Positions 747 through 52,144 of a stretch of 64,000 nucleotides of DNA are shown here, one piece after another. The stretch's first letter is position 1, and each line of letters begins with the position of its first letter. Both the position numbers and the translations under genes were made by a program. Source of the DNA: a virus; the IMG/VR virus record IMGVR_UViG_3300042154_002686, positions 1-64,000 of that record; one strand, given 5' to 3'. The notes beneath the pieces are model-generated. The model did no database searches. It was not told where the DNA came from and was given only the letters and a program-made list of their open reading frames with translations.

Positions 747-1037
747 TTACTTTTTCTTTTTCTTTGCAGTTAGTTCCATGTTTTCTTTATGGAGTTTTTC
801 GTTGTTATTAGACAACTCACGGCAAAGTTCTCCCAGACGAATAACTTCCTTATTAAGGAATTCAAGGTGCTGGGCACGATATCCGTATCCTCCATTCTTC
901 ATCATTTCAACAATTGTGGCTTCCTTGTCGGCAATCGTCTTTTCACGCTCTTCAAGGACTCCGCACAACTTTGCATAAGCAAGTTGCATGTCACTTTTAG
1001 ACGGTGAGTTAAAAAAGTCTGTAATTTGTTTAATCAT
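747..1037 (-). CDS. Coiled-coil protein
   Basis: This encodes 96 residues dominated by Glu, Lys and Leu, ending in five lysines. Residues 28 to 90 have heptad-like spacing of Leu and Ile and probably form an extended coiled coil. Its start overlaps the stop of the upstream gene (1034 to 1255). Function unknown; an oligomerisation or nucleic-acid-contact role is only a guess from the basic tail. Confidence 0.65.
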   Translation of the reverse strand: MIKQITDFFNSPSKSDMQLAYAKLCGVLEEREKTIADKEATIVEMMKNGGYGYRAQHLEFLNKEVIRLGELCRELSNNNEKLHKENMELTAKKKKK

Positions 1038-1255
1038 TTTTGTGGTTTTGGTTGGTGGTTGTTTTTAATCAGCCATTGCTCTCGGTCAAAAGAGTCATCG
1101 CATACATCCATCATAGCATAAAACTGCTTGGAGTCAAGCGAAACCGAATACTTTATTCCGTCCTTAGTCTGAGTCATTTGATAACTCTTTGACTGAAAGC
1201 AATACCCCCACTTGGGGGGCTTGTCTGATATTTTCTTAGCCGTGGCCTTAGCCAT
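1034..1255 (-). CDS. Small hypothetical protein
   Basis: This encodes 73 residues with a basic N-terminus (MAKATAKKISDKPPKWGYC) followed by a compact segment with an aromatic core. It shares one base with the histone-fold candidate upstream (its start and that gene's stop meet at 1255). No family is recognised. Confidence 0.6.
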   Translation of the reverse strand: MAKATAKKISDKPPKWGYCFQSKSYQMTQTKDGIKYSVSLDSKQFYAMMDVCDDSFDREQWLIKNNHQPKPQK

Positions 1256-1461
1256 TAAGCGTTGCCAAGGATATATCCAGCGACAGCGGCATCGAGCGTC
1301 TTCTTGCCACCGTTGTGTTCCTTACAGGCAAGGAGAACCTTGCTTTCGACATAGCGGTCTAACGCCATGGCAAAGTCTGCGGAGATACGCTTTCCGTGGC
1401 TCTTTGCGAACTTACGGATGGTGGAGGTCTTAACATATGTGGTTTTAGTGGATGAGGCCAT
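1255..1461 (-). CDS. Putative histone-fold DNA-binding protein
   Basis: This encodes 68 residues, the size of single-histone bacterial and archaeal proteins. The predicted layout is a short helix (about 12 to 21), a loop with GKRIS (23 to 27), a long central helix (about 28 to 48), a second loop with GGKKT (51 to 55), and a third helix (56 to 65). The spacing and the G-(K/R)-R-(I/V)-S and G-(R/K)-K-T loop signatures match those of histone-fold proteins, where they contact DNA. The role would be DNA binding or architecture. This is inferred by eye from pattern and length; no alignment was run. An unrelated three-helix protein is the alternative. Confidence 0.55.
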   Translation of the reverse strand: MASSTKTTYVKTSTIRKFAKSHGKRISADFAMALDRYVESKVLLACKEHNGGKKTLDAAVAGYILGNA

Positions 1462-4063: not shown

Positions 4064-4834
4064 TCAAGCCGATTCTTCATCAGACTTCTTTTTCTTCTTT
4101 TTCTTGGGCTTCTCAACGGTCTCAACAAGGCCAATCTCGTTTTTCTGCTGGGATTCCATTTCGGAAAACCACTTAAGCGAGTCCTCATTCTGCTTTTTGT
4201 TGTTTTCAATCACTTCCTTGCCGTCAACAAAATCCCAAAGAGTGGGGATGCGTGTTCTTCCAGACTCGGCAGGGAACCAAGCCTCAGAGTAAGCCCAGTT
4301 TTCAACATCCTTTGCCTCAAACATGTCCGACTTCATTAGAAGTTGGATTTCGTCAAATGTAGCACCAATGTCCGTTGCCAACTTATCCATTGGGATTTTA
4401 TGGGTTTCGACTAATTCACGGACATACTCGCTCATTCGGAACGCAAGGTGCGTACCCTTGGCTCGATTAATACGAACGGTAATAATCATGGCCTCAACAT
4501 CAGTAATGTCAAGGATGGCACAAGGAACCTTGCCGTGGTACTTTGAACGAAGGCTGGGGGAAAGGCGACTGAGCGTCCAGCGATGGAAGCCGTCAATGAT
4601 TACATTGTTCTTGTTTACAAGGATTGGCTGAATCCATCCAGTCAGAAGGATAGAACGCTCAATGAGGTTCATTTCTGCATTCATAACCCTGTTTGGGTTA
4701 TAGTGATTGGCTACGAGTTTGTCGCAGTCAATCCACTGGATATTCTCGACAGGCTCGAGTGTGCGTGGTGTGTTGGTCATAGAAGTTTTGTCCATTCCTT
4801 TTGGCTCTTGCGGTAAGGGAGAAGAAGTTTCCAT
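4064..4834 (-). CDS. ParB/Srx-domain protein, IbrB-like
   Basis: This encodes up to 256 residues. An N-terminal ParB-like domain is visible around residues 32 to 120, with the signature GWIQPILVNKNNVIIDGFHRW-like stretch (about 66 to 86) holding the conserved G-(F/H)-H-R. The C-terminus ends in a lysine run. In IbrA/IbrB-type pairs a ParB-like protein partners the PAPS-reductase-like protein encoded just upstream. The start at 4834 has a good AAGAGG ribosome site but overlaps the partner by 58 bases; an internal ATG at 4780 would give a four-base ATGA overlap. Exact activity unknown. Confidence 0.75.
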   Translation of the reverse strand: METSSPLPQEPKGMDKTSMTNTPRTLEPVENIQWIDCDKLVANHYNPNRVMNAEMNLIERSILLTGWIQPILVNKNNVIIDGFHRWTLSRLSPSLRSKYHGKVPCAILDITDVEAMIITVRINRAKGTHLAFRMSEYVRELVETHKIPMDKLATDIGATFDEIQLLMKSDMFEAKDVENWAYSEAWFPAESGRTRIPTLWDFVDGKEVIENNKKQNEDSLKWFSEMESQQKNEIGLVETVEKPKKKKKKKSDEESA

Positions 4835-5865
4835 ATCTGTCCTCTTACGAAATATTTAAGCACATAGTCAAACGGATAATTATTCATGTCCTTGTTTCTT
4901 TCAGACTCGCTCAATTTTCCAATCTGCGTGAGTCTATGGAGGGCCAAGTCTCTGGACTTGCCCTCTTCGTAGTGCTCCACGATGTACTTGTGTATGCCAG
5001 CCCAATCCTTGCCGTATTTGGCTTGAACGCCAGCATCATTGCGAGACTCGGAGTATCTGTCGTGCGTTGCTTGGTCTGGGAAAATCTTAAGCAGTTGGTC
5101 GTAGAACTGTGGGTCAATCTGACGAAGTTTCTTGAGGTGACGAATCTTCTCTGGATGAAGGAATGGAGATGTTCTCAAGTCCATCTTTGCATAGAGTTGC
5201 CAGTCGTAGACCTTGCTGTACGGAAGTTTGTTGTCGTAAAGATACTTTAGAACATCTCGCTCTTCCCAGTCGTACATGGGCTTGCAGAGCGTTGCACTTT
5301 TAACGCCATTTGATTTGTTGATGTAGTTTTCAACAAGTTTATTAACTGAACCACGCCAGCGGAAACGGGACTCTGAGGCACGGATGCCGTTCATCTGGGC
5401 TACCTTGCCCGTGAACCACTGGCACTGATAACGCTCAATCTCGTCCGCCCACCATTCAAGGTTCCAAATGTCCTGTGTTGGACGAATGGCATATTCTGGT
5501 ATTGGACGCATCGTCTCACGGTTCTTGAAGTCCCACTGGCGATATTCAATGGGTTTGTCAAAGACATAGCGGAGAGAGGGTTCTGGTATAAGAAGGTGAT
5601 GCATACGCACCCAAGGGAAAGACGCATAGTGGCGGACAAAATCCACCGTATTACCAAGAGTAAACTCGTCATGTCTGAATACACAATTAACGAAGTTAAG
5701 ACCTCGCTCTTGTGCAACTTCCCAAGCAAGATGAGCGAGAACCTGTGAGTCCTTTCCTCCAGAAAATAGAACAATCGGAGTATCGTGCGTATCATAGATG
5801 TGGTGTATCCTTTCCTTTGCGGCAGTAAGGACATTTATCCCCATTGGGGATTTATATCGACTCAT
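4777..5865 (-). CDS. PAPS-reductase-family protein, IbrA-like
   Basis: This encodes 362 residues. SGGKDS (residues 35 to 40) is the PP-loop of adenine-nucleotide alpha hydrolases, and the rest matches the layout of phosphoadenosine phosphosulfate reductase-like proteins with a long C-terminal extension, as in IbrA. Family members activate a substrate by adenylation or handle adenylated sulfur. With the ParB-like neighbour they recur as a pair in phages and mobile elements, where roles in gene activation or nucleic-acid sulfur modification are discussed. The target here is unknown. Confidence 0.8.
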   Translation of the reverse strand: MSRYKSPMGINVLTAAKERIHHIYDTHDTPIVLFSGGKDSQVLAHLAWEVAQERGLNFVNCVFRHDEFTLGNTVDFVRHYASFPWVRMHHLLIPEPSLRYVFDKPIEYRQWDFKNRETMRPIPEYAIRPTQDIWNLEWWADEIERYQCQWFTGKVAQMNGIRASESRFRWRGSVNKLVENYINKSNGVKSATLCKPMYDWEERDVLKYLYDNKLPYSKVYDWQLYAKMDLRTSPFLHPEKIRHLKKLRQIDPQFYDQLLKIFPDQATHDRYSESRNDAGVQAKYGKDWAGIHKYIVEHYEEGKSRDLALHRLTQIGKLSESERNKDMNNYPFDYVLKYFVRGQIWKLLLPYRKSQKEWTKLL

Positions 5866-27011: not shown

Positions 27012-28028
27012 TTATTTACCGCCTTGGTTTTTTCTGCGTTCCTTAATCTGTCGCATAACCTCTGCCGCCCTGTCCTGTGTTTCCTTCTTCTTTCTGTCCG
27101 CTTCCTGTCTCTGTTGGGCGATTTCTCTATCAATTCTTTCGCCCTGTTGGCGTAACTTTTCCCGAGCGGACTCTAACTGTCTTTCTGCCGCATCCTCTTC
27201 CCTTTTGTTTCGCTTTGGAGCCTTTGGAGCCTTTTCTCTCTTTTCAACACGCTTCTTTGTACGCTGTGCGGTTGAGTCGTTTGTGCTTCTGCGAGCCTTG
27301 GGCGTAGCCTTCTTTGGAGTCGTCTTCTTCTTGGCAACAGGAGCCTTGCGTCTAGCCTTGGGCTTATTAGCCTTCTTTGCTCTCAACTTTGCGGCATTAT
27401 CTCTTGCCGTCTGTCTGGCCTTTTTAAGTTTCTTATTGGTAGCCGCAGTCTTCTTCTTGGATTCCGCTCTACGCTTTGCGTAAGCCGCTTGCTTCTTGCT
27501 GACTAAAGGCTTGCCTTGCAAGACCTTCTGCTTGTTGCGATTGGCAACCCGAGCACCTCTGGCAGTGCCATCCGAAGGGGTGTTGAAGGAAGCAGGAATG
27601 ACAACACGCTTGCCACCCTTACGAGCACCACCACTGGAGACTTCGTCATCATTGTATCTGCGAACCGTTCCTCCCTTAAGTTTTTGGCCTTCTTGGTAAG
27701 GACCATAGTCAGAAAACTGCTGAACCCCAGGTTTCATCGTGCCTCTGCGTGTTCCGAGAAGTTCGTCTCTATTGTCTTCAGTAACCTTTGTTCTGGTGAT
27801 TGAGCCGTCTTCGTTCTGAACGGCAATGATATCTCCGTTCTTAACATACTCTTCGGCTTCTCCGTATCCAATTTCGCCAGTTTCCTTACCTGCCGTGCCG
27901 AAGTTCGACTCACCAGTGTAAAGCATTCCAGCCTTGCCTTGGCGACGAAGTTCTGCGTTATACGCACGGGCTTTGCCCGCAGGGGTTAGCGAGCCGTCAG
28001 CCGCTTTATAGAATGTTCTTCCTGCCAT
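27012..28028 (-). CDS. Histone H1-like basic head-module protein
   Basis: This encodes 338 residues. Residues 1 to about 150 are mixed and globular. From about 150 to the end the protein is extremely rich in Lys, Arg, Ala and Pro (repeats such as KKKTAATNKKLKKAR and KKTTPKKATPKAR), like the tail of histone H1. It is encoded between scaffold and capsid. A DNA-condensing or injected virion protein is plausible; a cleaved internal protein processed by the S49 protease is another. It has its own promoter and terminator. Confidence 0.65.
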   Translation of the reverse strand: MAGRTFYKAADGSLTPAGKARAYNAELRRQGKAGMLYTGESNFGTAGKETGEIGYGEAEEYVKNGDIIAVQNEDGSITRTKVTEDNRDELLGTRRGTMKPGVQQFSDYGPYQEGQKLKGGTVRRYNDDEVSSGGARKGGKRVVIPASFNTPSDGTARGARVANRNKQKVLQGKPLVSKKQAAYAKRRAESKKKTAATNKKLKKARQTARDNAAKLRAKKANKPKARRKAPVAKKKTTPKKATPKARRSTNDSTAQRTKKRVEKREKAPKAPKRNKREEDAAERQLESAREKLRQQGERIDREIAQQRQEADRKKKETQDRAAEVMRQIKERRKNQGGK

Positions 28029-42873: not shown

Positions 42874-43032
42874 ATGCGATACAACATCCGAAAGGGCGAA
42901 GGTTACATCCACTACATCATCGACACCCGCACCGACCGCAGGGTCAAGTTGGTCTATGGCTGGGAGATGGCTCTGAAGGTCTGCCGAGAATACAACCTCT
43001 TCTGGGCTGAGTTCAAGAAGACCAACTCGTAA
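42874..43032 (+). CDS. Array gene 1, hypothetical
   Basis: This encodes 52 residues, basic and aromatic (RYNIRKGEGYIHYIIDTRTDRRVKLVYGWEM-type start, then a helix). It is the first rightward gene after the divergence point, with -10 TAGTGT just before the ATG and a strong terminator after the stop. No family is recognised. Confidence 0.65.
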   Translation: MRYNIRKGEGYIHYIIDTRTDRRVKLVYGWEMALKVCREYNLFWAEFKKTNS

Positions 43033-43040
43033 GAACTAAC

Positions 43041-43066
43041 GAGCCCCCACGGGGGCTCTTTTTTTT
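43041..43066 (+). terminator. Terminator of array gene 1
   Basis: GAGCCCC-CACG-GGGGCTC with eight T residues. Confidence 0.9.
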
Positions 43067-43110
43067 GACCTGCGAGGTAGGCCGTTGAGGGCATCAAATT
43101 GATATTGCAC

Positions 43111-43170
43111 ATGACCCCTCTCGCCCTCACTCTCATCTTATCAGCAACCCGCCACCCCTCCCGCACATGA
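43111..43170 (+). CDS. Possible 19-codon leader peptide
   Basis: ATG at 43111 opens a short hydrophobic frame (MTPLALTLILSATRHPSRT) whose TGA (43168 to 43170) overlaps the next ATG (ATGA). It could be a coupled leader peptide, but the predicted -10 near 43136 would start transcription after this ATG. Low confidence. Confidence 0.2.
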   Translation: MTPLALTLILSATRHPSRT

Positions 43171-43301
43171 CCATCCTCGCCCTCGCCCTCGCCCTCGCTT
43201 ACGCCCTCGCCCTCGGCTGGCTTCTCCGTAAGATGAAGACCACCCCTGCCCTCCGCTCCGACCGCTCCGACCGAGTGACCATCTTCGGAGACAACCGCTA
43301 A
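43167..43301 (+). CDS. Array gene 2, small membrane protein
   Basis: This encodes 44 residues. Residues 3 to 20 are a Leu/Ala transmembrane helix (ILALALALAYALALGWLL), followed by a basic soluble tail. It starts a three-gene unit with no terminator until 43.8 kb; its leader is C/A-rich with no Shine-Dalgarno. Function unknown. Confidence 0.55.
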   Translation: MTILALALALAYALALGWLLRKMKTTPALRSDRSDRVTIFGDNR

Positions 43302-43335
43302 CCCCTCTCACCCACCCACCCACCCACCCACGCAC

Positions 43336-43530
43336 ATGACCCACGCCACCGCCACCGCCACCGTTAAGACCGACTGGGACTCCCTCCCCCTCGGTGAAGA
43401 CCTCTCCCACCTGTGCGGAGGTCGTAACAAGCACAAGACCGCCACCGAGGTGACCGACCTCGCCCCCTCGGGCGATGGCTGGAACATCCCCACCGCCTCG
43501 GCCATCCTCTCCGACCCCACCCTCGGCTAA
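43336..43530 (+). CDS. Array gene 3, hypothetical, paralogue of 47568
   Basis: This encodes 64 residues. It shares TDWD(S/N)LPLGE(D/N)LSHLCGGRNKH with the gene at 47568 to 47768, showing duplication inside the array. The Cys and His in this motif might bind metal, but only one Cys is present. It is preceded by a CCCA tandem repeat and follows gene 2 without a terminator. Confidence 0.65.
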   Translation: MTHATATATVKTDWDSLPLGEDLSHLCGGRNKHKTATEVTDLAPSGDGWNIPTASAILSDPTLG

Positions 43531-43573
43531 CCACCGAGGCAACCCCTCCAACCCCTCCAACCCTCCCACGCAC

Positions 43574-43792
43574 ATGACCACCGCCACCGCCCTCCCCGCC
43601 CTCCCGCCCGTCCTCCGCATCTCCCGCCCGACTCCTCTGACCACCGTCTGGTCTTATCTGGCCTCTGTCTCGGACGGAGACCGCATCGTCTTCCCCTGCG
43701 GTCTGCGGGTGACGGTCTCCGTCCGCAACCGCATGACCCTCGCCCTCATCATGGCGAAGCGAGGTCTCCGAGGCACGAAGCGAAACAGGTGA
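43574..43792 (+). CDS. Array gene 4, basic hypothetical protein
   Basis: This encodes 72 residues with a proline-rich start, a beta-like middle (DRIVFPCGLRVTVSV) and a strongly basic C-terminus (KRGLRGTKRNR). Its TGA lies inside the first of two palindromes (43789 to 43821). It ends the gene 2 to 4 unit. Confidence 0.6.
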   Translation: MTTATALPALPPVLRISRPTPLTTVWSYLASVSDGDRIVFPCGLRVTVSVRNRMTLALIMAKRGLRGTKRNR

Positions 43793-43821
43793 ACGCCTGT
43801 TCACGGTGAACGAAAGTTCAC
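43789..43821. repeat. Twin palindrome 1
   Basis: GTGAAC-GCCT-GTTCAC (43789 to 43804) and GTGAAC-GAAA-GTTCAC (43806 to 43821) lie 17 bp centre to centre, before a GGTAGG motif and in place of a U-tract terminator. Confidence 0.85.
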
Positions 43822-43904
43822 TCTGCGGTAGGTGCGGCGGTGCGTAAATTTCGCCACCGAATTGTATCGCACAATGCGACCACATCGCCATGTTCATAGA
43901 TGCC

Positions 43905-44045
43905 ATGAAGAAGCCCCCCCAGCCCAAGAAGCCCAAGACCGCCAAGACCACCAAGCCCCTCACGGGCAAGGAACTCGCCAAGGAGGTGAACAAGTATCAA
44001 GGACTCGCCCGAGTCTCTCGGATGCTCGGCAACCTCTGGTCGTAA
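43905..44045 (+). CDS. Array gene 5, Lys/Pro-rich protein
   Basis: This encodes 46 residues from the ATG at 43905; an in-frame ATG at 43890 overlaps the predicted -10. The N-terminus is a basic, Pro/Thr/Lys-rich linker (KKPPQPKKPKTAKTTKP), and the C-terminus is an amphipathic helix. Possibly nucleic-acid binding by charge. Function unknown. Confidence 0.6.
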   Translation: MKKPPQPKKPKTAKTTKPLTGKELAKEVNKYQGLARVSRMLGNLWS

Positions 44046-44052
44046 GAACTAC

Positions 44053-44078
44053 GGAGCCCCTGCGGGGGCTCCCTTTTT
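44053..44078 (+). terminator. Terminator of array gene 5
   Basis: GGAGCCCC-TGC-GGGGGCTCC followed by CTTTTT. Confidence 0.85.
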
Positions 44079-44178
44079 CGCAATGCGGTAGGTCGGTTAA
44101 TTGACCGAAATCAGTCGAATTATTTTCTGGTATCAGACCGTCAAATCGCTACATTCATCTTCGCACCCAATAAACGCC

Positions 44179-44415
44179 ATGTCTCATAAACTCAATGTCC
44201 TCACCCTCGCCCGCACGAACGCCCTCGCCCGCATCCGCAATGTTGGCGACAACATCGCTGATGCCAAGGAGAACCTTCGCCTCTCCGTCCTCAACCACGG
44301 AACTGGAAGCAAGGCGTGGAACTTCTGGAAGTCCGAACTCGCTCGCCATGACAGCGAGTGGACTGAAGTCTGCAACGAACTGCGGGAAATCGACTGGGAA
44401 CTCGGAAACAAGTAA
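44179..44415 (+). CDS. Array gene 6, helical hypothetical protein
   Basis: This encodes 78 residues from the ATG at 44179, all-helical by composition (Ala, Leu, Arg, Glu) with two Trp residues. The upstream in-frame extension lies on the class-I promoter box. The promoter is CTGGTA, 17 bp, TACATT. Function unknown. Confidence 0.7.
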   Translation: MSHKLNVLTLARTNALARIRNVGDNIADAKENLRLSVLNHGTGSKAWNFWKSELARHDSEWTEVCNELREIDWELGNK

Positions 44416-44423
44416 GACGAAAC

Positions 44424-44447
44424 GGGGAGCGAGTGCTCCCCTTTTTT
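44424..44447 (+). terminator. Terminator of array gene 6
   Basis: GGGGAGC-GAGT-GCTCCCC with TTTTTT. Confidence 0.85.
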
Positions 44448-44534
44448 GTGCCCCGAGGGTAGGCCGACCAGTGCGTAGATTTCGACAAAGATTTTGGTTT
44501 ACTCGGACGATGGTTCAACTACTGTGATGGTCTC

Positions 44535-44702
44535 ATGCAACCCGCTCCCCTGCCCGACCTCACTTACCTCTACATGCTCTCCGTTGAACTTGGAGACATT
44601 GCCCAATACTGCGACCGTGGTTCGCCCGAAGACCTCGCTTATCAGAAGGCGAAGCAAGACTACCTCGATGCGGTCTTCATGGGCGAAGACGAAGAGGGCT
44701 AA
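44535..44702 (+). CDS. Array gene 7, acidic hypothetical protein
   Basis: This encodes 55 residues. It is helical and acidic, ending GEDEEG, with a hydrophobic core (TYLYMLSVELGDIAQY). An out-of-frame ATG nine bases earlier overlaps the -10 (TACTGT). No family is recognised. Confidence 0.6.
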   Translation: MQPAPLPDLTYLYMLSVELGDIAQYCDRGSPEDLAYQKAKQDYLDAVFMGEDEEG

Positions 44703-44722
44703 AGCCCCCGCCCGAAAGGAGT

Positions 44723-44750
44723 GAGAGACCCCAAGCGGGTCTCTCTTTTT
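44723..44750 (+). terminator. Terminator of array gene 7
   Basis: GAGAGACCC/GGGTCTCTC stem with TTTTT. Confidence 0.8.
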
Positions 44751-44799
44751 CGCTCTGCGGATAGGCCGACCAATTGACCGAAATCAGTCGCACTTTGTT

Positions 44800-44828
44800 C
44801 TGGTATCCTGTCGGGTTTGTGCTACTGT
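44800..44828 (+). promoter_or_regulatory. Representative class-I array promoter
   Basis: CTGGTA (44800 to 44805), 17 bp, TACTGT (44823 to 44828), with the upstream box AATTGACCGAAATCAGTCG and a GGATAGG motif. It serves the gene at 44848. Confidence 0.65.
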
Positions 44829-44847
44829 GTCCTTGTTCCCAATACCC

Positions 44848-45048
44848 ATGATTACTAATGACCATACCGCCATCTGCTCCCGATACGCCCACCTCGGTGA
44901 CGCAGTCTGCTTTCGTCTCACCGCCATCGCCCGCACGATGCTCGTCATGCAGGGGCGACTTGCTCGCCTCGATAAGCGAGCGGGGGCTATGGCCGAACTT
45001 GCCCGATGCCGAGCCATGTGGTTCGAACTGACGGGGGAGAGGGTTTAA
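44848..45048 (+). CDS. Array gene 8, helical hypothetical protein
   Basis: This encodes 66 residues, Ala/Arg-rich and helical (HLGDAVCFRLTAIARTMLV, ARLDKRAGAMAELARCR). The in-frame GTG at 44827 overlaps the -10 and is not used. The leader of about 13 bases is C/A-rich without Shine-Dalgarno. Function unknown. Confidence 0.65.
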   Translation: MITNDHTAICSRYAHLGDAVCFRLTAIARTMLVMQGRLARLDKRAGAMAELARCRAMWFELTGERV

Positions 45049-45074
45049 GACTCTCGCCCAGTTAGAACAGAAAC

Positions 45075-45097
45075 GGAACCCATCGGGTTCCTTTTTT
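45075..45097 (+). terminator. Terminator of array gene 8
   Basis: GGAACCC-ATC-GGGTTCC with TTTTTT. Confidence 0.85.
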
Positions 45098-45173
45098 GTT
45101 CCCTGCGGGTAGGTCGCTACAACCGCCATTTTGCTCTCGACTTGGCCGATGCTTCTGCCACTCTGTTGGTCTT

Positions 45174-45359
45174 ATGACCTCCTCCTCCTCCCGCTCGCTG
45201 GCCCTCGCCCTCGCCTCGCACGAGGCCCACCTGCTCGACCTCGCCCTTCGCAGGGCCGAGTGCGTAGCCATGGGCCTCAATCCCGAGGACTATGTCCCCG
45301 CTGACCCCGTCTTTGACGAGGAGGACTATCGTCCCATCGTGCGGAAACGCTACGGGTGA
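45174..45359 (+). CDS. Array gene 9, hypothetical
   Basis: This encodes 61 residues: a Ser-rich start, an Ala/Leu helix (SLALALASHEAHLLDLALRRAE), then an acidic Pro-containing stretch and basic end (PIVRKRYG). Its upstream box (CAACCGCCATTTTG) is shared with the RNA module at 49.2 kb. The TGA lies inside twin palindrome 2. Confidence 0.6.
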   Translation: MTSSSSRSLALALASHEAHLLDLALRRAECVAMGLNPEDYVPADPVFDEEDYRPIVRKRYG

Positions 45360-45389
45360 ACGCCCGTTCACTGGTGAACATTTGTTCAC
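45356..45389. repeat. Twin palindrome 2
   Basis: GTGAAC-GCCC-GTTCAC (45356 to 45371) and GTGAAC-ATTT-GTTCAC (45374 to 45389), 18 bp centre to centre, with no U-tract terminator at this module end. Confidence 0.85.
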
Positions 45390-45473
45390 TTCGTGGGTAG
45401 GCTGGCTCCTGCGTAAAATTGGGCAACGATTTGTATCGACCCAAGCCAAGGAATGACCACATTCATCTGTGCC

Positions 45474-45671
45474 ATGAAGAACGCATCCCTCCTCCCCCGC
45501 AACGCTCACCTCGCCATCAAGGAAGCCATCCTCGATGCTAAGGAAGCAAGGAACGAACTCAACCGCCTCGGCTCCCGCTACCACGGAATGTCCGAGAAGG
45601 TCGAAGAGCCCATCAAGAGCCTCGAAACCCTCATCGCCCGCCTCGAAGCGGTTCTCCCCAAGGCCGAGTGA
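45474..45671 (+). CDS. Array gene 10, helical hypothetical protein
   Basis: This encodes 65 residues, nearly all helix (AIKEAILDAKEARNELNRL and VEEPIKSLETLIARLEAVL), likely a helical hairpin. The earlier in-frame ATG (45453) encodes MTTFICAM, but those bases are the conserved CACATTCATC promoter region, so the second ATG is chosen. Function unknown. Confidence 0.7.
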   Translation: MKNASLLPRNAHLAIKEAILDAKEARNELNRLGSRYHGMSEKVEEPIKSLETLIARLEAVLPKAE

Positions 45672-45691
45672 GGCCGAGGGTAAGAACCAGC

Positions 45692-45717
45692 GAGACCCCG
45701 AGTGGGGTCTCTTTTTT
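45692..45717 (+). terminator. Terminator of array gene 10
   Basis: GAGACCCC-GAGT-GGGGTCTC with TTTTTT. Confidence 0.9.
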
Positions 45718-45803
45718 GGTCTGCGGGTAGGTCAGTTTGTGCATAGATTTAGACAAATAATTTCATCGACTATGAGCATCGGATAGCCACATTCACCTCT
45801 GCC

Positions 45804-46079
45804 ATGACGCACTCCTCCTCCCCCGCCTCGCCCGTGTTCCTCGTCACCGTTCAGTCCGTAGAATACTACGGTGAACGCTACTACAAGTTCAAGGGCGGGT
45901 TCAATGTCCTCGTCTCCACGGACAAGGACGCTACGGCCTTCGGCCTCGTCCTCGAATACCTTGTGGCGAACAAACTCGCCTCGGGCTACTACCCGAAGCA
46001 TGCCGAGCGGTTCGAGACCGAGGCAGATGCCCTCGCCACCCTCGACCCCGAATGGGAGACGGTCAGAGTCCGCCTCTGA
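45804..46079 (+). CDS. Array gene 11, hypothetical
   Basis: This encodes 91 residues. A beta-rich core (VFLVTVQSVEYYGERYYKFKG, FNVLVSTDKD) is followed by two helices. The start MTHSSSPA matches array gene 16, suggesting shared module heads. It ends just before twin palindrome 3. No family is recognised. Confidence 0.7.
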   Translation: MTHSSSPASPVFLVTVQSVEYYGERYYKFKGGFNVLVSTDKDATAFGLVLEYLVANKLASGYYPKHAERFETEADALATLDPEWETVRVRL

Positions 46080-46089
46080 GCGGAACAGG

Positions 46090-46121
46090 TGAACGGGTGT
46101 TCAGTAATGAACACTTGTTCA
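46090..46121. repeat. Twin palindrome 3
   Basis: TGAAC-GGGT-GTTCA (46090 to 46103) and TGAAC-ACTT-GTTCA (46108 to 46121), 18 bp centre to centre. Confidence 0.8.
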
Positions 46122-46219
46122 CTTCGTGGGTAGGCCGACTGGTGCTTAGATTTCGCCACCGAATTATCTCGATTTTTTTAAAACGACCCCCATAGTAATG
46201 GATGCATCAAGCAACCCAC

Positions 46220-46363
46220 ATGAACGACCTCCATAACAAAATCACCAAACTCGAAAACCGCCTCGCCAAGCGATGCCACCTCATCGGCCCTCGCTTCCGT
46301 GCCGCCCTCGAAAAGCGTCTCGAAGCAATGTATCAGCAGTTCAACGCCCGCCTCGCCAAGTAA
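46220..46363 (+). CDS. Array gene 12, basic helical protein
   Basis: This encodes 47 residues, Arg/Lys/Leu-rich (KITKLENRLAKRCHL and ALEKRLEAMYQQFNARLAK), probably a two-helix hairpin. The promoter is TCGATT, 16 bp, CATAGT. The leader ends CAACCCACATG without a Shine-Dalgarno. Function unknown. Confidence 0.6.
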   Translation: MNDLHNKITKLENRLAKRCHLIGPRFRAALEKRLEAMYQQFNARLAK

Positions 46364-46379
46364 GGCGAAAGGACTAACC

Positions 46380-46400
46380 GCCCCCTCACGGGGGCTTTTT
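46380..46400 (+). terminator. Terminator of array gene 12
   Basis: GCCCCC-TCAC-GGGGGC with TTTTT. Confidence 0.85.
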
Positions 46401-46486
46401 GTTCTCTTCGAGGGTAGGCCGATTAATTGACCGTTCGCTCATTAAAAACGAGTTGCGTCAGCACCCCCACCGTTTACCTTCATCTC

Positions 46487-46768
46487 ATGGCAATCACGCC
46501 CCACGGAGGTAAAACGAGCGACTCCTCCCGCTCTCCCACGGAAGTCTACCAGATGCTCGTCAGCATCTCGCAAGCCATCCGAGACGGTCGGAACGGCCTC
46601 GACCCCTTCGGCCACAAGTTGGCCGACCTCATGTCCGACCTCTTGGACGAAGTCCGAGACGAGGTCGAAGCGGCACGGAAGGAGGAACTAATCCTCCGAG
46701 CCAAGCGAGCGGCTCAAAACCTCTCCGACGACCTTCGGGCTCACGCTGTCGAAGAACACAGAGAGTAA
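46487..46768 (+). CDS. Array gene 13, helical acidic protein
   Basis: This encodes 93 residues. After a short Gly/Ser-rich start, two long charged helices follow (EVYQMLVSISQAI, LMSDLLDEVRDEVEAARKEELILRAKRAAQNL). Upstream in-frame sequence lies on the promoter. A coiled-coil interaction module is likely; role unknown. Confidence 0.65.
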   Translation: MAITPHGGKTSDSSRSPTEVYQMLVSISQAIRDGRNGLDPFGHKLADLMSDLLDEVRDEVEAARKEELILRAKRAAQNLSDDLRAHAVEEHRE

Positions 46769-46775
46769 GAAGAAC

Positions 46776-46802
46776 GGAGACCCTTCGGGGTCTCCTTTTT
46801 TT
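46776..46802 (+). terminator. Terminator of array gene 13
   Basis: GGAGACCC-TTC-GGGGTCTCC with seven T residues. Confidence 0.9.
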
Positions 46803-46888
46803 ATTTCGTGGGTAGGCCGCCCCGTGCGTAGATTTCGACAAAGAATTTTGTTTACTTCGGTCACGAATTGACCACATTCATCTTTGCC

Positions 46889-47113
46889 ATGACGCACTCC
46901 CCCGCACTCGATGCCCTCCTCGAAACCAACCCCGCACTCTGGTTCGCTTACCAGAACCACGCCAACTACAAGGCCAAGGCCAAAGCCCACGAAGAAAAGA
47001 AGGAGTGGGCCAAGGCCACTTACTACCACGAACGCTCCATTAGCACTATCGGCTTCATCCACTCCATGGGCTACTCTGCCAAGAACATCGGCCAGCCCCG
47101 AGCAATCAAGTAA
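46889..47113 (+). CDS. Array gene 14, helical hypothetical protein
   Basis: This encodes 74 residues, rich in Ala, Lys, Glu and His (NYKAKAKAHEEKKEWAKATYYHERS). The preceding in-frame MTTFIFAM overlaps the conserved -10 region (CACATT), so translation is placed at the second ATG, about three bases from the predicted +1. Function unknown. Confidence 0.7.
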   Translation: MTHSPALDALLETNPALWFAYQNHANYKAKAKAHEEKKEWAKATYYHERSISTIGFIHSMGYSAKNIGQPRAIK

Positions 47114-47123
47114 GACGAGACGG

Positions 47124-47148
47124 GAGAGGCGAAAGCCTCTCTCTTTTT
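47124..47148 (+). terminator. Terminator of array gene 14
   Basis: GAGAGGC-GAAA-GCCTCTC followed by TCTTTTT. Confidence 0.85.
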
Positions 47149-47194
47149 GTCTGCGGGTAGGTCTGATACTGCATAAAATCAAGCAACGAATTTT

Positions 47195-47223
47195 CTGGTA
47201 TTCTACCGTGGATGCCGTAGTGT
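47195..47223 (+). promoter_or_regulatory. Representative class-II array promoter
   Basis: CTGGTA (47195 to 47200), 17 bp, TAGTGT (47218 to 47223), preceded by the box TGCATAAAATCAAGCAACGAATTT and GGGTAGG. Confidence 0.65.
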
Positions 47224-47242
47224 CATGGTCTCCCACCCAGCC

Positions 47243-47437
47243 ATGAACAAGACCAACCCAGAAGCCCGCCTCCGCCACATCGAAACCGTCCGTGCCCTGC
47301 GTCTCGCCCACGCCCGACACATGGCGAACTTCGACCGATACGCTCGCCTTGAAATGTTTGAGGCCGCACAGTATTGGCTCGGTCGGGCCAGCGAGGCCCA
47401 CAAGCAACTCCTCGACCTTGGAGAGATTGCCATCTAA
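47243..47437 (+). CDS. Array gene 15, helical hypothetical protein
   Basis: This encodes 64 residues, all-helical with many His, Arg and Ala (LRHIETVRALRLAHARHM, EAAQYWLGRASEAHKQLL). An in-frame ATG at 47225 abuts the -10 and precedes the predicted +1 (47230). Function unknown. Confidence 0.65.
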   Translation: MNKTNPEARLRHIETVRALRLAHARHMANFDRYARLEMFEAAQYWLGRASEAHKQLLDLGEIAI

Positions 47438-47455
47438 TCGATGGTCAGACCCAAC

Positions 47456-47480
47456 GAGAGCCTTCGGGCTCTCTTTTTTT
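47456..47480 (+). terminator. Terminator of array gene 15
   Basis: GAGAGCC-TTC-GGGCTCTC with seven T residues. Confidence 0.9.
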
Positions 47481-47567
47481 CTCTACGAGGGTAGGTCTGC
47501 TGGTGCGTAAATTTCGCCAGCGATTGTCGTTTACTTTTGGCACGGGATGACCACATTCATCTTTGCC

Positions 47568-47768
47568 ATGACGCACTCCTCCTCCCCCGCAACGACCGCC
47601 ACCAAGACCGACTGGGACAACCTCCCCCTCGGTGAAAACCTGTCCCACCTCTGCGGAGGTCGGAACAAGCACCCCCGCCTCGCCTCCGAGGTCGAGACCC
47701 AGACGAAGGACGACACGGTTCGCCCCTTCACTGCGAGCGAACTCCTCGGGGATGTTAGCATCGGCTAA
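47568..47768 (+). CDS. Array gene 16, paralogue of array gene 3
   Basis: This encodes 66 residues. The central TDWDNLPLGENLSHLCGGRNKH is shared with the gene at 43336, while the C-terminal halves have diverged. The start MTHSSSPAT matches array gene 11. The in-frame MTTFIFAM upstream lies on the promoter. Function unknown. Confidence 0.7.
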   Translation: MTHSSSPATTATKTDWDNLPLGENLSHLCGGRNKHPRLASEVETQTKDDTVRPFTASELLGDVSIG

Positions 47769-47790
47769 CCCCCGATGTTAGTTCTCAAAC

Positions 47791-47813
47791 AAGAGCCTTC
47801 GGGCTCTTTTTTT
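47791..47813 (+). terminator. Terminator of array gene 16
   Basis: AAGAGCC-TTC-GGGCTCTT with a T run. Confidence 0.85.
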
Positions 47814-47900
47814 GTCCCTGCGGATAGGTCTGTCTGTGGGTAAAATTCGACAAAGATTTTTGTTGTATCGGACGAGGAAAGCCCCCAGACTGTCGGAGTA

Positions 47901-48113
47901 ATGAAACTCCTCGCAACCGACATGACCCACAACGACATTCAAATTGCCAAGAACGCAACGATGGATGCCTTCGACACCCTCGAAGCCATCAAGTGCAAGT
48001 ATCCCGCCCTCGGGGAAGAGTGGGACAGCATCATCGCTGTCCAGCGTTTGCTGGTGAACCACACAATTGCTCTCTCCAATCTTGAAAACGCTCGAAACGG
48101 TTTGAAGCAGTAA
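47901..48113 (+). CDS. Array gene 17, helical hypothetical protein
   Basis: This encodes 70 residues, helical with mixed charge (QIAKNATMDAFDTLEAIK, VNHTIALSNLENARNGL). The predicted +1 lies about four bases before the ATG (GGAGTAATG), so the mRNA is nearly leaderless. An ATG seven codons later is an alternative start. Function unknown. Confidence 0.65.
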   Translation: MKLLATDMTHNDIQIAKNATMDAFDTLEAIKCKYPALGEEWDSIIAVQRLLVNHTIALSNLENARNGLKQ

Positions 48114-48122
48114 GAACAAGCG

Positions 48123-48147
48123 AGCCCCAAGTGGGGCTCTCTTTTTG
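48123..48147 (+). terminator. Terminator of array gene 17
   Basis: GAGCCCC-AAGT-GGGGCTC followed by TCTTTTT. Confidence 0.85.
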
Positions 48148-48245
48148 TCTGCGAGGGTAGGTCCGAGACTGCGTAAAAATCGCCAGCGATTGTTATCGAT
48201 TTTTTTGAAAAACAGTCCATGGTTGTAGTCGCACCAACGCAACCC

Positions 48246-48455
48246 ATGATTAATCCCAATGCCGAGTTACTCCTCCACCTGTTCGCCAGCCAGAGCCTTC
48301 CCCTGCTCCAATGGACTGCTCGCAAGCGACAGAACTCCCTCTACATGCTGACCGTAAGGCAGGACATTACGGTAGACCAGCATATGAACTACATGGACAA
48401 TCTTGACGAAGTTGTAGCCTTCGTTCACGAATACGACCCGCCCTCGGTCAAGTGA
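48246..48455 (+). CDS. Array gene 18, hypothetical
   Basis: This encodes 69 residues from the ATG at 48246; the earlier ATG (48219) overlaps the -10 (CATGGT). It is mixed alpha/beta (NAELLLHLFASQSLPLLQW, SLYMLTVRQDITV, ending in an acidic helix). No family is recognised. Confidence 0.6.
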   Translation: MINPNAELLLHLFASQSLPLLQWTARKRQNSLYMLTVRQDITVDQHMNYMDNLDEVVAFVHEYDPPSVK

Positions 48456-48470
48456 GGGAAAGGTCTAATC

Positions 48471-48495
48471 GCCCCCTCACGGGGGCTTTTTATTT
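48471..48495 (+). terminator. Terminator of array gene 18
   Basis: GCCCCC-TCAC-GGGGGC followed by TTTTTATTT. Confidence 0.85.
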
Positions 48496-48597
48496 AGACC
48501 CCGAGGTAGGTCTGGCAATTGACCGAACGCTCATAAAATGGTGCTCGCTTTTTATGCGTTGGTGGTTCACAGTGTTGGAGTAATCAATAACCCTCCC

Positions 48598-48735
48598 ATG
48601 CATAACATCATCTCGTTCACCTCCGAAGAGTCCCTCGCCAAGTTCCTCTCGAACTTTGACATTACCACGAACCGCTTCACGGTCGAACAGACCTCGAAGA
48701 ACGGTTTCCTCCTCACCTTCTACCCGAGCATCTAA
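48598..48735 (+). CDS. Array gene 19, small hypothetical protein
   Basis: This encodes 45 residues: a helix with Ser/Glu/Leu (TSEESLAKFLSNF), then a beta hairpin-like end (NRFTVEQTSKNGFLLTFYP). The in-frame extension from 48538 lies on the class-I box. No family is recognised. Confidence 0.55.
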   Translation: MHNIISFTSEESLAKFLSNFDITTNRFTVEQTSKNGFLLTFYPSI

Positions 48736-48748
48736 CCCACCCGAAAGG

Positions 48749-48780
48749 GCTCACCTCTACGGGGGTGGGCTCTTTTATTT
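48749..48780 (+). terminator. Terminator of array gene 19, GCTCACC type
   Basis: GCTCACC pairs with GGTGGGC (one U-G wobble), then TCTTTTATTT. The same type recurs at 52859 and 53554. Confidence 0.7.
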
Positions 48781-48827
48781 TCTACGAGGGTAGGTGCGGA
48801 GGTGCGTGAAATTCGGCACACTTTTTT

Positions 48828-48856
48828 CTGGTATTTCGAGGTCTGTGTGCTACTGT
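48828..48856 (+). promoter_or_regulatory. Promoter of array gene 20
   Basis: CTGGTA (48828 to 48833), 17 bp, TACTGT (48851 to 48856). The predicted leader is about 47 bases, CAC/CCA-rich. Confidence 0.6.
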
Positions 48857-48909
48857 GATGTCGCACTCAGCAACACCCACCCACACCCCCACCCACCACC
48901 ACCACCACC

Positions 48910-49161
48910 ATGTTCGTCTACACCGAAGAATACGCCCGCCAGCAGTCCGAAGCCCGCTCCGAGGCCATCCGTGCCCGTGCGGAATACGAGAAGACCGTCA
49001 CCCGCCAGAACGCCATGGCCGAGGCGTGGGATGCGGTCGAGAAGGCCGAGGACGACTGCCGCAAGGCCAAGGGCACGGTCGCCCGCAAGGAGGCCAAGAA
49101 GGCTCTGGCTTACGCTGACTGGGTCTGGAAGACCATGAACGACCCCAAGTTCAAGGTGTAA
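48910..49161 (+). CDS. Array gene 20, helical Ala/Glu/Lys-rich protein
   Basis: This encodes 83 residues, almost entirely charged helix (YARQQSEARSEAIRARAEYEK, AEKAEDDCRKAKGTVARKE). It is likely a long coiled coil. An overlapping frame from 48855 reads through the CAC-rich leader and is rejected. Function unknown. Confidence 0.7.
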   Translation: MFVYTEEYARQQSEARSEAIRARAEYEKTVTRQNAMAEAWDAVEKAEDDCRKAKGTVARKEAKKALAYADWVWKTMNDPKFKV

Positions 49162-49170
49162 TCCCAAACG

Positions 49171-49191
49171 AGCCCCTCACGGGGCTTTTTT
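49171..49191 (+). terminator. Terminator of array gene 20
   Basis: AGCCCC-TCAC-GGGGCT with T5. Confidence 0.85.
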
Positions 49192-49254
49192 GTGCCCTCT
49201 GCGGGTAGGTCTGGCGAGCCGCCATTTTGTTGTTGCTTTGCGGGCTGGTTGTGT

Positions 49255-49400
49255 CACTCTCTTCTTATCGCTCCTGCGATATCAGTCTAATCGGTCTTCC
49301 CAGCAGTTAGTAGCCACTAACTCTAAGGCGGACACTGCTGGGATACGCCTCCCGATAGACTAACATAAGACCACCCCTTCGGGGGTGGCAGTTTGTTTTT
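49255..49400 (+). ncRNA. Structured non-coding RNA module with possible pseudoknot
   Basis: This module has GGGTAGG, a -10 CACTCT (49255 to 49260) and a terminator but no ORF; the RNA would run from about 49267 to 49400. Stems seen: 5' hairpin ATCGC/GCGAT (49267 to 49280); outer stem AGTCTA-A-TCGG with CCGATAGACT (49284 to 49294 with 49352 to 49361); perfect CCCAGCAG/CTGCTGGG (49299 to 49306 with 49335 to 49342); inner hairpin TTAGT-AGCC-ACTAA (49307 to 49320). AGGCG (49326 to 49330), in the loop of the 8-bp stem, can pair with CGCCT (49346 to 49350) outside it, an H-type pseudoknot. The end is a UUCG-capped terminator. Function unknown; a small regulatory or decoy RNA is possible. Confidence 0.75.
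49371..49400 (+). terminator. Terminator of the ncRNA module
   Basis: CCACCCC-TTCG-GGGGTGG with a cUUCGg tetraloop, then CAGTTTGTTTTT. Confidence 0.85.
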
Positions 49401-49407
49401 GTGACTA

Positions 49408-49439
49408 GTGAACATTTGTTCACCATGAACATTTGTTCA
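49408..49439. repeat. Twin palindrome 4
   Basis: GTGAAC-ATTT-GTTCAC (49408 to 49423) and TGAAC-ATTT-GTTCA (49426 to 49439), 17 bp centre to centre, after the ncRNA terminator and before GGGTAGG. Confidence 0.85.
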
Positions 49440-49520
49440 CCCTGCGGGTAGGCAACTTATACGACCGAACGCTCATAAGATAAAACTCGCACAAGCCCCC
49501 CGCCATGCTACTCTGATGAC

Positions 49521-49769
49521 ATGGAAATTACTCCACGCCAGCAGGGGCACGAAGCCGCCCGCTTTAACGAAGAAAACGAGCCGTATTTCGGCCCGCAGGA
49601 TGACGGGTGCTACGGCACTGTCCCGACCGACCGCCCTGCCCGCCGCCCAAGGGTGGCAAAGCGGCCCCAGACCTTCGTGGAGGACACCACGCACCCGAGG
49701 GGCACGAAGGCGTGGTATCTCCTCAATAAGGGCTGGCATGCCGCCCAGCACCGCCCATACTGGGACTAA
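49521..49769 (+). CDS. Array gene 22, hypothetical
   Basis: This encodes 82 residues, polar, Pro/Arg/Trp-containing and low in hydrophobics (NEENEPYFGPQDDGCYG, RPARRPRVAKRP), so it may be partly disordered. The ATG lies about six bases after the -10. Function unknown. Confidence 0.65.
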   Translation: MEITPRQQGHEAARFNEENEPYFGPQDDGCYGTVPTDRPARRPRVAKRPQTFVEDTTHPRGTKAWYLLNKGWHAAQHRPYWD

Positions 49770-49785
49770 GGGCGAAAGCCCTCCC

Positions 49786-49811
49786 GAGCCCCAAGGGGGG
49801 CTCTTTTTTTT
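49786..49811 (+). terminator. Terminator of array gene 22
   Basis: GAGCCCC-AAG-GGGGGCTC with eight T residues. Confidence 0.9.
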
Positions 49812-49897
49812 ACTACGAGGGTAGGTCGCACGAAGGGTCGAAAAAGAAAATTATGGTGTTGCATGAACCGATTTTTTAACCACATTCATAGTCGATT

Positions 49898-50092
49898 ATG
49901 AAACTCGTATTCCTCATTCAGCAACCGACCGAAGAAGGCGAACCCCTCTTCTGGTCTAACCTCGATGGCTGGGTCTCCAAGGACTGTGCCGACCGCTTCT
50001 CTGGCGAAGAGCAGTTGACCACCCCCTTGCCCGCTGGTGGCATCTGGGACTATACCACGGTCTGGTCTACTATCGACTTCCCCCAGTCGTAA
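49898..50092 (+). CDS. Array gene 23, hypothetical
   Basis: This encodes 64 residues, beta-like with many aromatics (KLVFLIQQP, PLFWSNLDGWVSKDCADRF, IWDYTTVWSTIDF). The predicted start of transcription lies within a few bases of the ATG (CACATTCATAGTCGATTATG). No family is recognised. Confidence 0.65.
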   Translation: MKLVFLIQQPTEEGEPLFWSNLDGWVSKDCADRFSGEEQLTTPLPAGGIWDYTTVWSTIDFPQS

Positions 50093-50099
50093 TCAGTCG

Positions 50100-50125
50100 G
50101 AAGCCCCTTCGGGGGCTTCTTTTTT
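50100..50125 (+). terminator. Terminator of array gene 23
   Basis: GAAGCCCC-TTC-GGGGGCTTC with T6. Confidence 0.9.
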
Positions 50126-50216
50126 GTCTACGAGGGTAGGTCTCTGATTGCGTAAATTTTGGCACAGAATGTTCTCGATTTTTGCCAAAGACCTGCGAGT
50201 ATGTATGCCTTCACCC

Positions 50217-50513
50217 ATGAGCAACCCAACCAAATACCCGAAGTTCCGACTCCTCCTCTCCAACTCCGACCTGTCCCCTCGGGCGGTCGCCCGCAAGGTC
50301 TGTGACCAGATGGCGAACCGCCTCGCTGGGGTCGGACTGGACGACCTGCCCGACACGGCTGGTCTCTGCAACGAGGTGGACGAGATGGAAAGCACCGTTG
50401 CCAACTGGGGCACGGAACGCAACCCCTCGGACGAGCAAATCAAAGCCCTCTACGATTGGGCGAAGGAGGCGGTCACGAACCTCCTCTATGAGGAAGGCTT
50501 CGAAGTGGAGTAA
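50217..50513 (+). CDS. Array gene 24, helical hypothetical protein
   Basis: This encodes 98 residues. A basic start (TKYPKFRLLLSNSDLSPRAVARKVCDQMANRL) leads to acidic helices (LCNEVDEMESTVANW, EQIKALYDWAKEAVTNLLYEEGF). In-frame sequence upstream of 50217 covers the promoter. Function unknown. Confidence 0.7.
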   Translation: MSNPTKYPKFRLLLSNSDLSPRAVARKVCDQMANRLAGVGLDDLPDTAGLCNEVDEMESTVANWGTERNPSDEQIKALYDWAKEAVTNLLYEEGFEVE

Positions 50514-50522
50514 CCCCAAACC

Positions 50523-50543
50523 AGCCCCTTCGGGGGCTTTTTT
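50523..50543 (+). terminator. Terminator of array gene 24
   Basis: AGCCCC-TTC-GGGGGCT with T5. Confidence 0.85.
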
Positions 50544-50594
50544 GTGCCCATCGAGGGTAGGTCGGACACTGCGTAAAAATCGGCAAAGATTTTT

Positions 50595-50623
50595 CTGGTT
50601 TTGGGGCAAAAGTGTGTTAGTGT
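50595..50623 (+). promoter_or_regulatory. Leaderless array promoter
   Basis: CTGGTT (50595 to 50600), 17 bp, TAGTGT (50618 to 50623); +1 is predicted at 50630 and the ATG is at 50632. Confidence 0.65.
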
Positions 50624-50631
50624 GTTGGAGT

Positions 50632-50805
50632 ATGAAATACATCATCCTCAAGAACAGCAAAGAGTCGGCCCACTTCAACACGCTCGCCCCGTGGGCCGTC
50701 TACGACAACGACAACGGCCAGTTGGTCGCCAAGTTCACGACCCTCGCCAAGGCCAAGGCCATGGTGAACCAGTGGGCCGTCTACCTCGGGGGCGTGATTG
50801 GCTAA
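50632..50805 (+). CDS. Array gene 25, small hypothetical protein
   Basis: This encodes 57 residues: a beta start (KYIILKNSKESAHFN), WAVYDNDNGQLVAKFTT, then an Ala/Lys helix and a hydrophobic end (WAVYLGGVIG). The layout suggests a small alpha/beta domain. The mRNA is predicted to be leaderless. Function unknown. Confidence 0.7.
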   Translation: MKYIILKNSKESAHFNTLAPWAVYDNDNGQLVAKFTTLAKAKAMVNQWAVYLGGVIG

Positions 50806-50824
50806 CCGCCAGTCAGTCCTTCTC

Positions 50825-50848
50825 AAAGACCCTCACGGGTCTTTTTTT
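50825..50848 (+). terminator. Terminator of array gene 25
   Basis: AAAGACCC-TCAC-GGGTCTTT with a T run. Confidence 0.85.
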
Positions 50849-50930
50849 GTCACCACGGGGATAGGTCCGACGGTGCGTAAAATTGGGCAACGATTTTTCT
50901 GGTTTCTGGGACAAGGTGTGTTAGTGTCAT

Positions 50931-50946
50931 GGAGTCGAAAGACACC
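50931..50946 (+). promoter_or_regulatory. Leader hairpin GGAGTCGAAAGACACC, copy 1
   Basis: GUC-GAAA-GAC forms a GNRA-capped hairpin at or near the predicted 5' end. Further copies are at 52252, 52634, 54300 and 57181. Confidence 0.6.
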
Positions 50947-50968
50947 CAACCCAAACACCCACACACAC

Positions 50969-51202
50969 ATGACCACGCAATCGTTCAACCACATGGAAGT
51001 CTTCACCTGTCGCATGGCTCTCCGCCTCGCCTCCGAGAGCAAGGGCAAGATGCACCTCACGAACCCCGTGCTGGTTCGCAGGACTGCCACCCGCCTCCTC
51101 ACGGCCATCGGGGTGCAGGGCATCACGAACCGCACCCGCTGGGAGACCCTGCACCAGACCTTCGAGGCGACCTTCGGGGTTCAGATTGACGAGCAGAAGT
51201 AA
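50969..51202 (+). CDS. Array gene 26, member of a three-gene paralogous family
   Basis: This encodes 77 residues. The pattern MEVFTCRMALRLAS, TNPVLVRRTATRLLTAIG, RWETLHQTFEATFG aligns with the genes at 52282 and 54338, which also share its leader hairpin. It is helical and basic. Gene and regulatory sequence appear to have duplicated together. Function unknown. Confidence 0.7.
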   Translation: MTTQSFNHMEVFTCRMALRLASESKGKMHLTNPVLVRRTATRLLTAIGVQGITNRTRWETLHQTFEATFGVQIDEQK

Positions 51203-51210
51203 GAAGAACG

Positions 51211-51236
51211 GAGCCCCTGCGGGGGCTCTTTTTTTT
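51211..51236 (+). terminator. Terminator of array gene 26
   Basis: GAGCCCC-TGC-GGGGGCTC with eight T residues. Confidence 0.9.
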
Positions 51237-51324
51237 GACCCACGGGTTAGGTCAGTTAATTGACCGAACCGCCATAAAAATAGACCTCGACAAACGGCAT
51301 GGATTGCCCCATCTTGTTTGAACG

Positions 51325-51522
51325 ATGAACACGCAATACATCAGCAACTACGACCTCTACCTCATGGCCTTCAATGCGGAGCAGGAGGCGAAGCAGGAAC
51401 TCGAAAATGCGGAATACGCCTTGAGGGTCTACACCGAGAAGGTTCGCCTCGCCAAGCAGGAGGTCAATGAGGCTCGGGCTGAACGATGGAAGGCGGAAGC
51501 GAGGTTCGTTGCCCACGGATAA
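51325..51522 (+). CDS. Array gene 27, coiled-coil protein
   Basis: This encodes 65 residues, mostly one charged helix (NAEQEAKQELENAEYALRVY, TEKVRLAKQEVNEARAERW) with heptad-like spacing. Function unknown. It is transcribed from a class-I box unit and ended by its own terminator. Confidence 0.7.
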   Translation: MNTQYISNYDLYLMAFNAEQEAKQELENAEYALRVYTEKVRLAKQEVNEARAERWKAEARFVAHG

Positions 51523-51538
51523 GTGGGTAACCACCAAC

Positions 51539-52136: not shown

Positions 52137-52144
52137 TCCCAATC

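Follow-up and report, generated by a model that had tools for sequence, protein, structure and literature searches.

Bacterial histones have been recognised only recently, and phage histones form so far a single predicted category, which carries an extra tetramerization domain. A histone signature described as universal has two parts (PMC13260811): the RT pair, in which an arginine of loop L1 is placed in the minor groove and held by a threonine of loop L2, and the R–D clamp. In HBb (Bd0055) from Bdellovibrio bacteriovorus (PDB entries 8FVX, 8CMP, 9EZZ and 9F0E), the residues in contact with DNA include T8, S9, K10, K12, K16, N22, S24, K52 and T53, with N22 making the strongest contact (PMC11317129). 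Two face-to-face histones also enter the comparison, HLp from Leptospira perolatii (9QT0) and HTkC from Thermococcus kodakarensis (9F2C); the tetramer residues of HLp are R49, N53 and R55, and its clamp is R55–D62 (PMC12701072). The α3 histones were defined by an α3 truncated to 3–4 residues and a shortened α2, bacterial dimer histones were assigned to carriers that include Planctomycetota and Chlamydiota, and the 'phage histones' (A0A2E7QIQ9) were described with a C-terminal α-helical tetramerization domain and no RxTxxxD motif (Schwab et al., 2024; PMC11390915).

The locus analysed here lies in a 64,000-nucleotide stretch of viral DNA (the window), which belongs to a virus record of 80,561 bases, and encodes a protein of 68 residues, P0001. 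The family to which P0001 belongs is most plausibly a subfamily of stand-alone single histones from tailed phages.

The gene and its predicted fold

The open reading frame of P0001 (Table 1) starts with an ATG at 1461, ends with a TAA at 1257–1255 and is translated as MASSTKTTYVKTSTIRKFAKSHGKRISADFAMALDRYVESKVLLACKEHNGGKKTLDAAVAGYILGNA. The product has a pI of 9.87 (~9.9), with 12 K+R against 5 D+E. The initial annotation had placed a candidate phage histone-fold protein at exactly this position, and the gene is now assigned to the minus strand. Compared with the two closest relatives, on contigs L001 and L002, dN/dS is 0.055 and 0.049, respectively, and 29 of the 38 nucleotide differences from L001 fall at third codon positions. 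P0001 is under strong purifying selection (dN/dS of about 0.05) and is a genuine gene, beyond chance. The adjoining 73-residue gene is conserved solely in L001 and L002 and is regarded as a neighbour only.

Table 1. Coordinates of the histone-fold gene, its structural elements and the adjoining gene in the window.
Feature	Position	Strand	Evidence
Phage histone-fold gene, 68 aa	1255..1461	-	Translation, relatives, dN/dS, AlphaFold2 model
Helix α1, residues 12–21 (TSTIRKFAKS), basic: K/R at 16, 17 and 20	1399..1428	-	DSSP on AlphaFold2 model, conservation
Loop L1, residues 22–27 (HGKRIS), R25 invariant in 39/39	1381..1398	-	Model, conservation
Helix α2, residues 28–47; L34, D35 and R36 strongly conserved	1321..1380	-	Model, conservation
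Loop L2, residues 48–57 (EHNGGKKTLD), family signature	1291..1320	-	Model, conservation
Helix α3, residues 58–65, two turns, then no C-terminal domain	1267..1290	-	Model
Adjoining 73-aa gene, ATG sharing one base with the histone stop (TAATG)	1034..1255	-	

No Shine–Dalgarno motif was found 5′ of the P0001 gene. In many related phages a leader, GTTCTTTC(A/T)CATCC(C)GCAT, is conserved immediately 5′ of the histone ATG without a Shine–Dalgarno motif; sites just upstream of the gene were located at L027 4998, L032 4992, L033 2015, L039 4989 and elsewhere, and CCACGCATATG was found at other genes of some contigs.

Searches of Pfam, PHROGs and NCBIfam with the single P0001 sequence gave no histone match and recognised nothing, phmmer against the PDB returned a chance match only, and a PF00808 search of the virus's own genome returned nothing. 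A Pfam histone match was absent even for the other family members. A family profile was built from an alignment (A3) of 39 relatives and compared with 177,635 PDB sequences using hmmsearch. The best match was HTkC (9f2c, E = 2.4e-4), followed by HBb (8fvx and 8cmp, E = 0.027 and 0.029) and HLp (9qt0, E = 0.042); the fifth match had an E-value of 0.76, and none other fell below 0.7. All three histones were aligned to the profile in one register and over nearly the full length, from α1 to L2. A control profile of 23 reversed relatives retrieved no histone from the PDB. The register was reproduced by hhalign between the family and the HTkC, HBb and HLp segments (probability 85–93%), an agreement that is partly circular because the segments were taken from the same profile search. 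TAL effectors, which had low whole-sequence E-values with a 13-member profile, were rejected as repeat artefacts; the matching stretches were of 14–15 residues with E > 100 each and disappeared with the 39-member profile.

The structure was predicted by AlphaFold2 with the 39-row alignment (mean pLDDT 90.7) and shows the α1-L1-α2-L2-α3 arrangement of the histone fold with a long central helix, in line with the helix layout proposed initially. Foldseek against the PDB placed HLp first (target-normalised TM 0.81, r.m.s.d. 1.8 Å, probability 0.98), followed by HBb chains (r.m.s.d. 1.6–2.1 Å); seven of the top eight matches are prokaryotic histones and one is a human histone dimer. Both models gave the same answer. 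The Foldseek E-values are weak (0.5 or higher), as expected at 68 residues, and are not decisive on their own; the case therefore rests on the agreement of sequence profile and structure. Prokaryotic histones are the only credible PDB relatives reached by the 39-member profile, and the predicted helix–loop–helix–loop–helix fold matches bacterial histone crystal structures, so that the proposed histone fold is supported from both sides. In the model, the fold of P0001 appears nearest to that of bacterial and archaeal histones with short helices (HBb, HLp and HTkC).

A non-histone basic protein of three helices, similar to histones by convergence, would fit the missing Pfam histone match, the Foldseek E-values above 0.1 and the absence of the R–D clamp described below. 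However, searches of the PDB by profile and by fold reach the same few prokaryotic histones, which the reversed control does not, and the L1 and L2 signatures stand at corresponding positions. Convergence is considered very improbable.

Conserved residues and DNA-contact positions

R25, H49, N50 and T55 are invariant in the 39 sequences. Near-invariant positions are K53 and D35 (38/39 each), D57, K24 and L34 (37/39 each) and K54 (36/39), and every member is basic, with pI values of 9.6–11.0 (39/39). The GKRIS and GGKKT loops that had drawn attention to the gene are both present, at residues 23–27 and 51–55. R25 is aligned with the arginine of the HTkC 'RVS' motif and with N22 of HBb, K54–T55 with K52–T53 of HBb, and S13, R16 and K20 with S9, K12 and K16 of HBb. 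The DNA-binding signature of histones, an RT pair together with a basic KT motif in L2, is thus found in the family, R25 and T55 occurring in 39/39 members. Conservation is among the highest at the residues for DNA contact, which fits direct DNA binding.

The R–D clamp (the arginine of an RKT motif and an aspartate seven residues further on) is absent in all 39 members: the first position is K53 in 38 and an arginine in one, and the second is valine, leucine or isoleucine in 39/39. Judged from conservation, the invariant H49–N50 and the near-invariant D57 of the same loop are candidates for its replacement. The position of the HBb dimer-core residue L38 is usually a lysine in the family (K41 in P0001). 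Just 12–21 residues follow K53 in every member.

Distribution, genomic context and possible role

Relatives of P0001 were found by tblastn in at least 45 other IMG/VR contigs (three scans), with identities from 91% down to about 42%, and each record that was searched by profile had exactly one copy. When sorted by which neighbouring genes they have in common, the 46 viral loci fall into nine groups (28, 7, 3, 2 and 2 loci and four singletons), an upper bound on the number of lineages because the loci are short fragments. No relative came from a tblastn search against 50,697 phage records. Among genome contigs, a first scan gave none and a second gave one further relative, on a metagenome-assembled genome (MAG) contig of Candidatus Aquidulcis; the same locus (L049, 5001–5186) was the sole relative in a pattern scan of 84,980 bacterial and archaeal species genomes. 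This contig is 32 kb long, with 10 kb that hold a phage-type methyltransferase and few informative genes, and is possibly a prophage or a mis-binned phage. Two UniProt entries from uncultured Caudovirales phages, A0A6J5MS37 and A0A6J5QYV5 (91 and 64 residues), belong to the same family (62–65% identity, r.m.s.d. 0.7–1.1 Å). They were deposited without a function, so sequences of the family are already public, though unannotated. No account of such a single-domain phage histone family was found in a literature search of incomplete coverage.

The window virus encodes a gpA-type terminase (Pfam, E = 5.6e-30), a λ-type portal protein (E = 7.4e-33) and a capsid protein with Verrucomicrobia phage P8625 as its nearest isolate (27% identity), and is therefore a tailed phage. 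Terminase-like genes were detected with two models in 13 other viral contigs at E ≤ 0.001, three of these matches falling under the Pfam cut-off. The family is thus carried by tailed dsDNA phages, a setting that it shares with the Schwab et al. (2024) phage histones.

In about 20 related loci, genes for an exonuclease VIII-like protein, endonuclease VII, an O-like initiator and a DnaC-like loader lie on the same strand, approximately 2–4.5 kb downstream of the histone gene. The window's own genome carries an exonuclease (DUF3799) and RecT at 75.8–77.5 kb, again on the same strand; a direct join of the two contig ends does not connect their reading frames, so circular adjacency of these genes to the histone gene is unproved. 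This neighbourhood is a mere hint because the loci are 5–11 kb fragments, many of them related. The proximity, where sampled, to early replication and recombination genes leads us to favour, with moderate confidence, a role in organising phage DNA during these processes over one in packing the virion.

A histone-fold protein packaged in the capsid to condense virion DNA, comparable to the histones of giant viruses, would agree with the small size and basic nature of P0001. Basic proteins may serve in the head of this virus, since the gene of a K/R/A-rich protein (27012–28028, minus strand; 338 residues, pI 10.6; K 14.8%, R 11.8%, A 12.7%) has a scaffold-like gene on one side and that of the capsid protein on the other. 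The histone gene, in contrast, is separated from the head genes by about 25 kb and lies among small non-structural genes, in about 20 relatives is upstream of genes for replication and recombination, and occurs once per record; a main function in the virion is distinctly unlikely. The K/R/A-rich protein had been named H1-like in the initial annotation, and the phage had been credited with two chromatin-like components. A Pfam search gave no family for it at E ≤ 0.1, linker-histone or Hc1 models included, and a linker-histone identity found no support other than composition. Its relatives are limited to L050 and L051 (63% identity), the latter being the same contig as L001, which carries the histone too. 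With neither a Pfam match nor a location away from the head genes, two chromatin-like components are not established and are still a suggestion.

P0001 could instead be a histone-fold regulator or host-takeover factor that pairs with or displaces a host histone or another host nucleoid protein, or affects transcription, and does not organise phage DNA. Small early phage proteins often have the host as their target, and Verrucomicrobia, the hosts of the nearest isolate by capsid, are grouped with Planctomycetota and Chlamydiota. Some prokaryotic histone-fold proteins may do other than organise genomes (Schwab et al., 2024; PMC11390915). Against this stands the conservation of the DNA-contact residues, and nothing points to a histone in the host. 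We regard a regulatory or takeover function as rather unlikely.

The reading that we prefer, and hold to be reasonably likely, is that P0001 is a minimal stand-alone tailed-phage histone, a putative DNA-bending handshake homodimer with a role in replication or recombination. P0001 probably forms a homodimer with nonspecific DNA-binding and DNA-bending activity. It would pair through α2 into the handshake homodimer, and the DNA backbone would be gripped by the basic faces of α1 and by the L1/L2 loop pair, in which K24, K53 and K54 flank R25 and T55. This grip would be at the minor groove and without sequence specificity, and the DNA would be bent as by HBb. P0001 would be made during infection, alongside the nearby replication and recombination genes, and would help to organise phage DNA in these processes rather than act mainly as a virion packing protein. 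More tentatively, the family may represent widespread, unnamed minimal phage histones, clampless and single-domain, which use an L2 lock of their own (HNGGKKTLD) and organise phage DNA during replication.

If this more tentative reading holds, some tailed phages would assemble chromatin of their own inside bacteria. Of the dozens of uncultured bacterial viruses with this gene, some may use a self-encoded minimal histone to organise DNA. For a phage, a shorter lineage with a single domain would demonstrate that the bare histone fold is enough. It would also serve as a very small model of how histones hold on to DNA when the R–D clamp is missing, and would bear on whether histones were transferred between domains of life by viruses.

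Other features were recorded in the window. At 4064–5865 (minus strand), a PAPS-reductase-family protein (E = 2.5e-11) adjoins a protein that matches ParB-N weakly (E = 4e-5, slightly under the Pfam cut-off); the pair is 96/93% identical in L001 and is also present in L002 and L024. An ArdC-type anti-restriction protein with a zincin domain is encoded at 57905–58738 (plus strand; Pfam, E = 2.6e-26 and 4.8e-28). An intergenic cassette recurs across 43000–56500 in at least 15 dispersed copies, approximately 300–1300 bases apart; each consists of a G+C-rich hairpin with a T run, then GGGTAGG(T/C), then TGCGTAAA..TTCG or TTAATTGACCGAACGCTCATAAA. They look like repeated terminator-plus-promoter modules among small genes.

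Comparison with described histones

Like P0001, HBb is a single short basic histone fold. The two proteins share a similar length, a shortened α2, the KT motif of L2 and a basic α1, and superpose at 1.6–2.1 Å with approximately 28% identity. HBb has an R51–D58 clamp and a one-turn α3 (PMC11317129), whereas P0001 has K53, no aspartate at +7, a two-turn α3 and the conserved HNGGKKTLD loop; HBb is, moreover, cellular and not viral. Compared with the definition of α3 histones, the α2 of the model (20 residues) is short and the α3 (eight residues) is longer than defined; this α3 and the missing clamp also set the family apart from both HBb and HLp. HLp is the best structural match and HTkC the best profile match. 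R55 and D62 of HLp have no counterpart in P0001 (K53 and V60), and the remaining tetramer residues cannot be safely equated from sequence.

The phage histones of Schwab et al. (2024), compared by description only, have in common with the P0001 family an origin in tailed-phage metagenomes, the missing RxTxxxD motif, and conserved lysines and an arginine. They carry a tetramerization domain, for which the family has no room after K53, and a C-terminal domain of this kind is lacking in 39/39 members. With neither the R–D clamp nor a C-terminal helix, the family therefore does not have the published 'phage histone' architecture.
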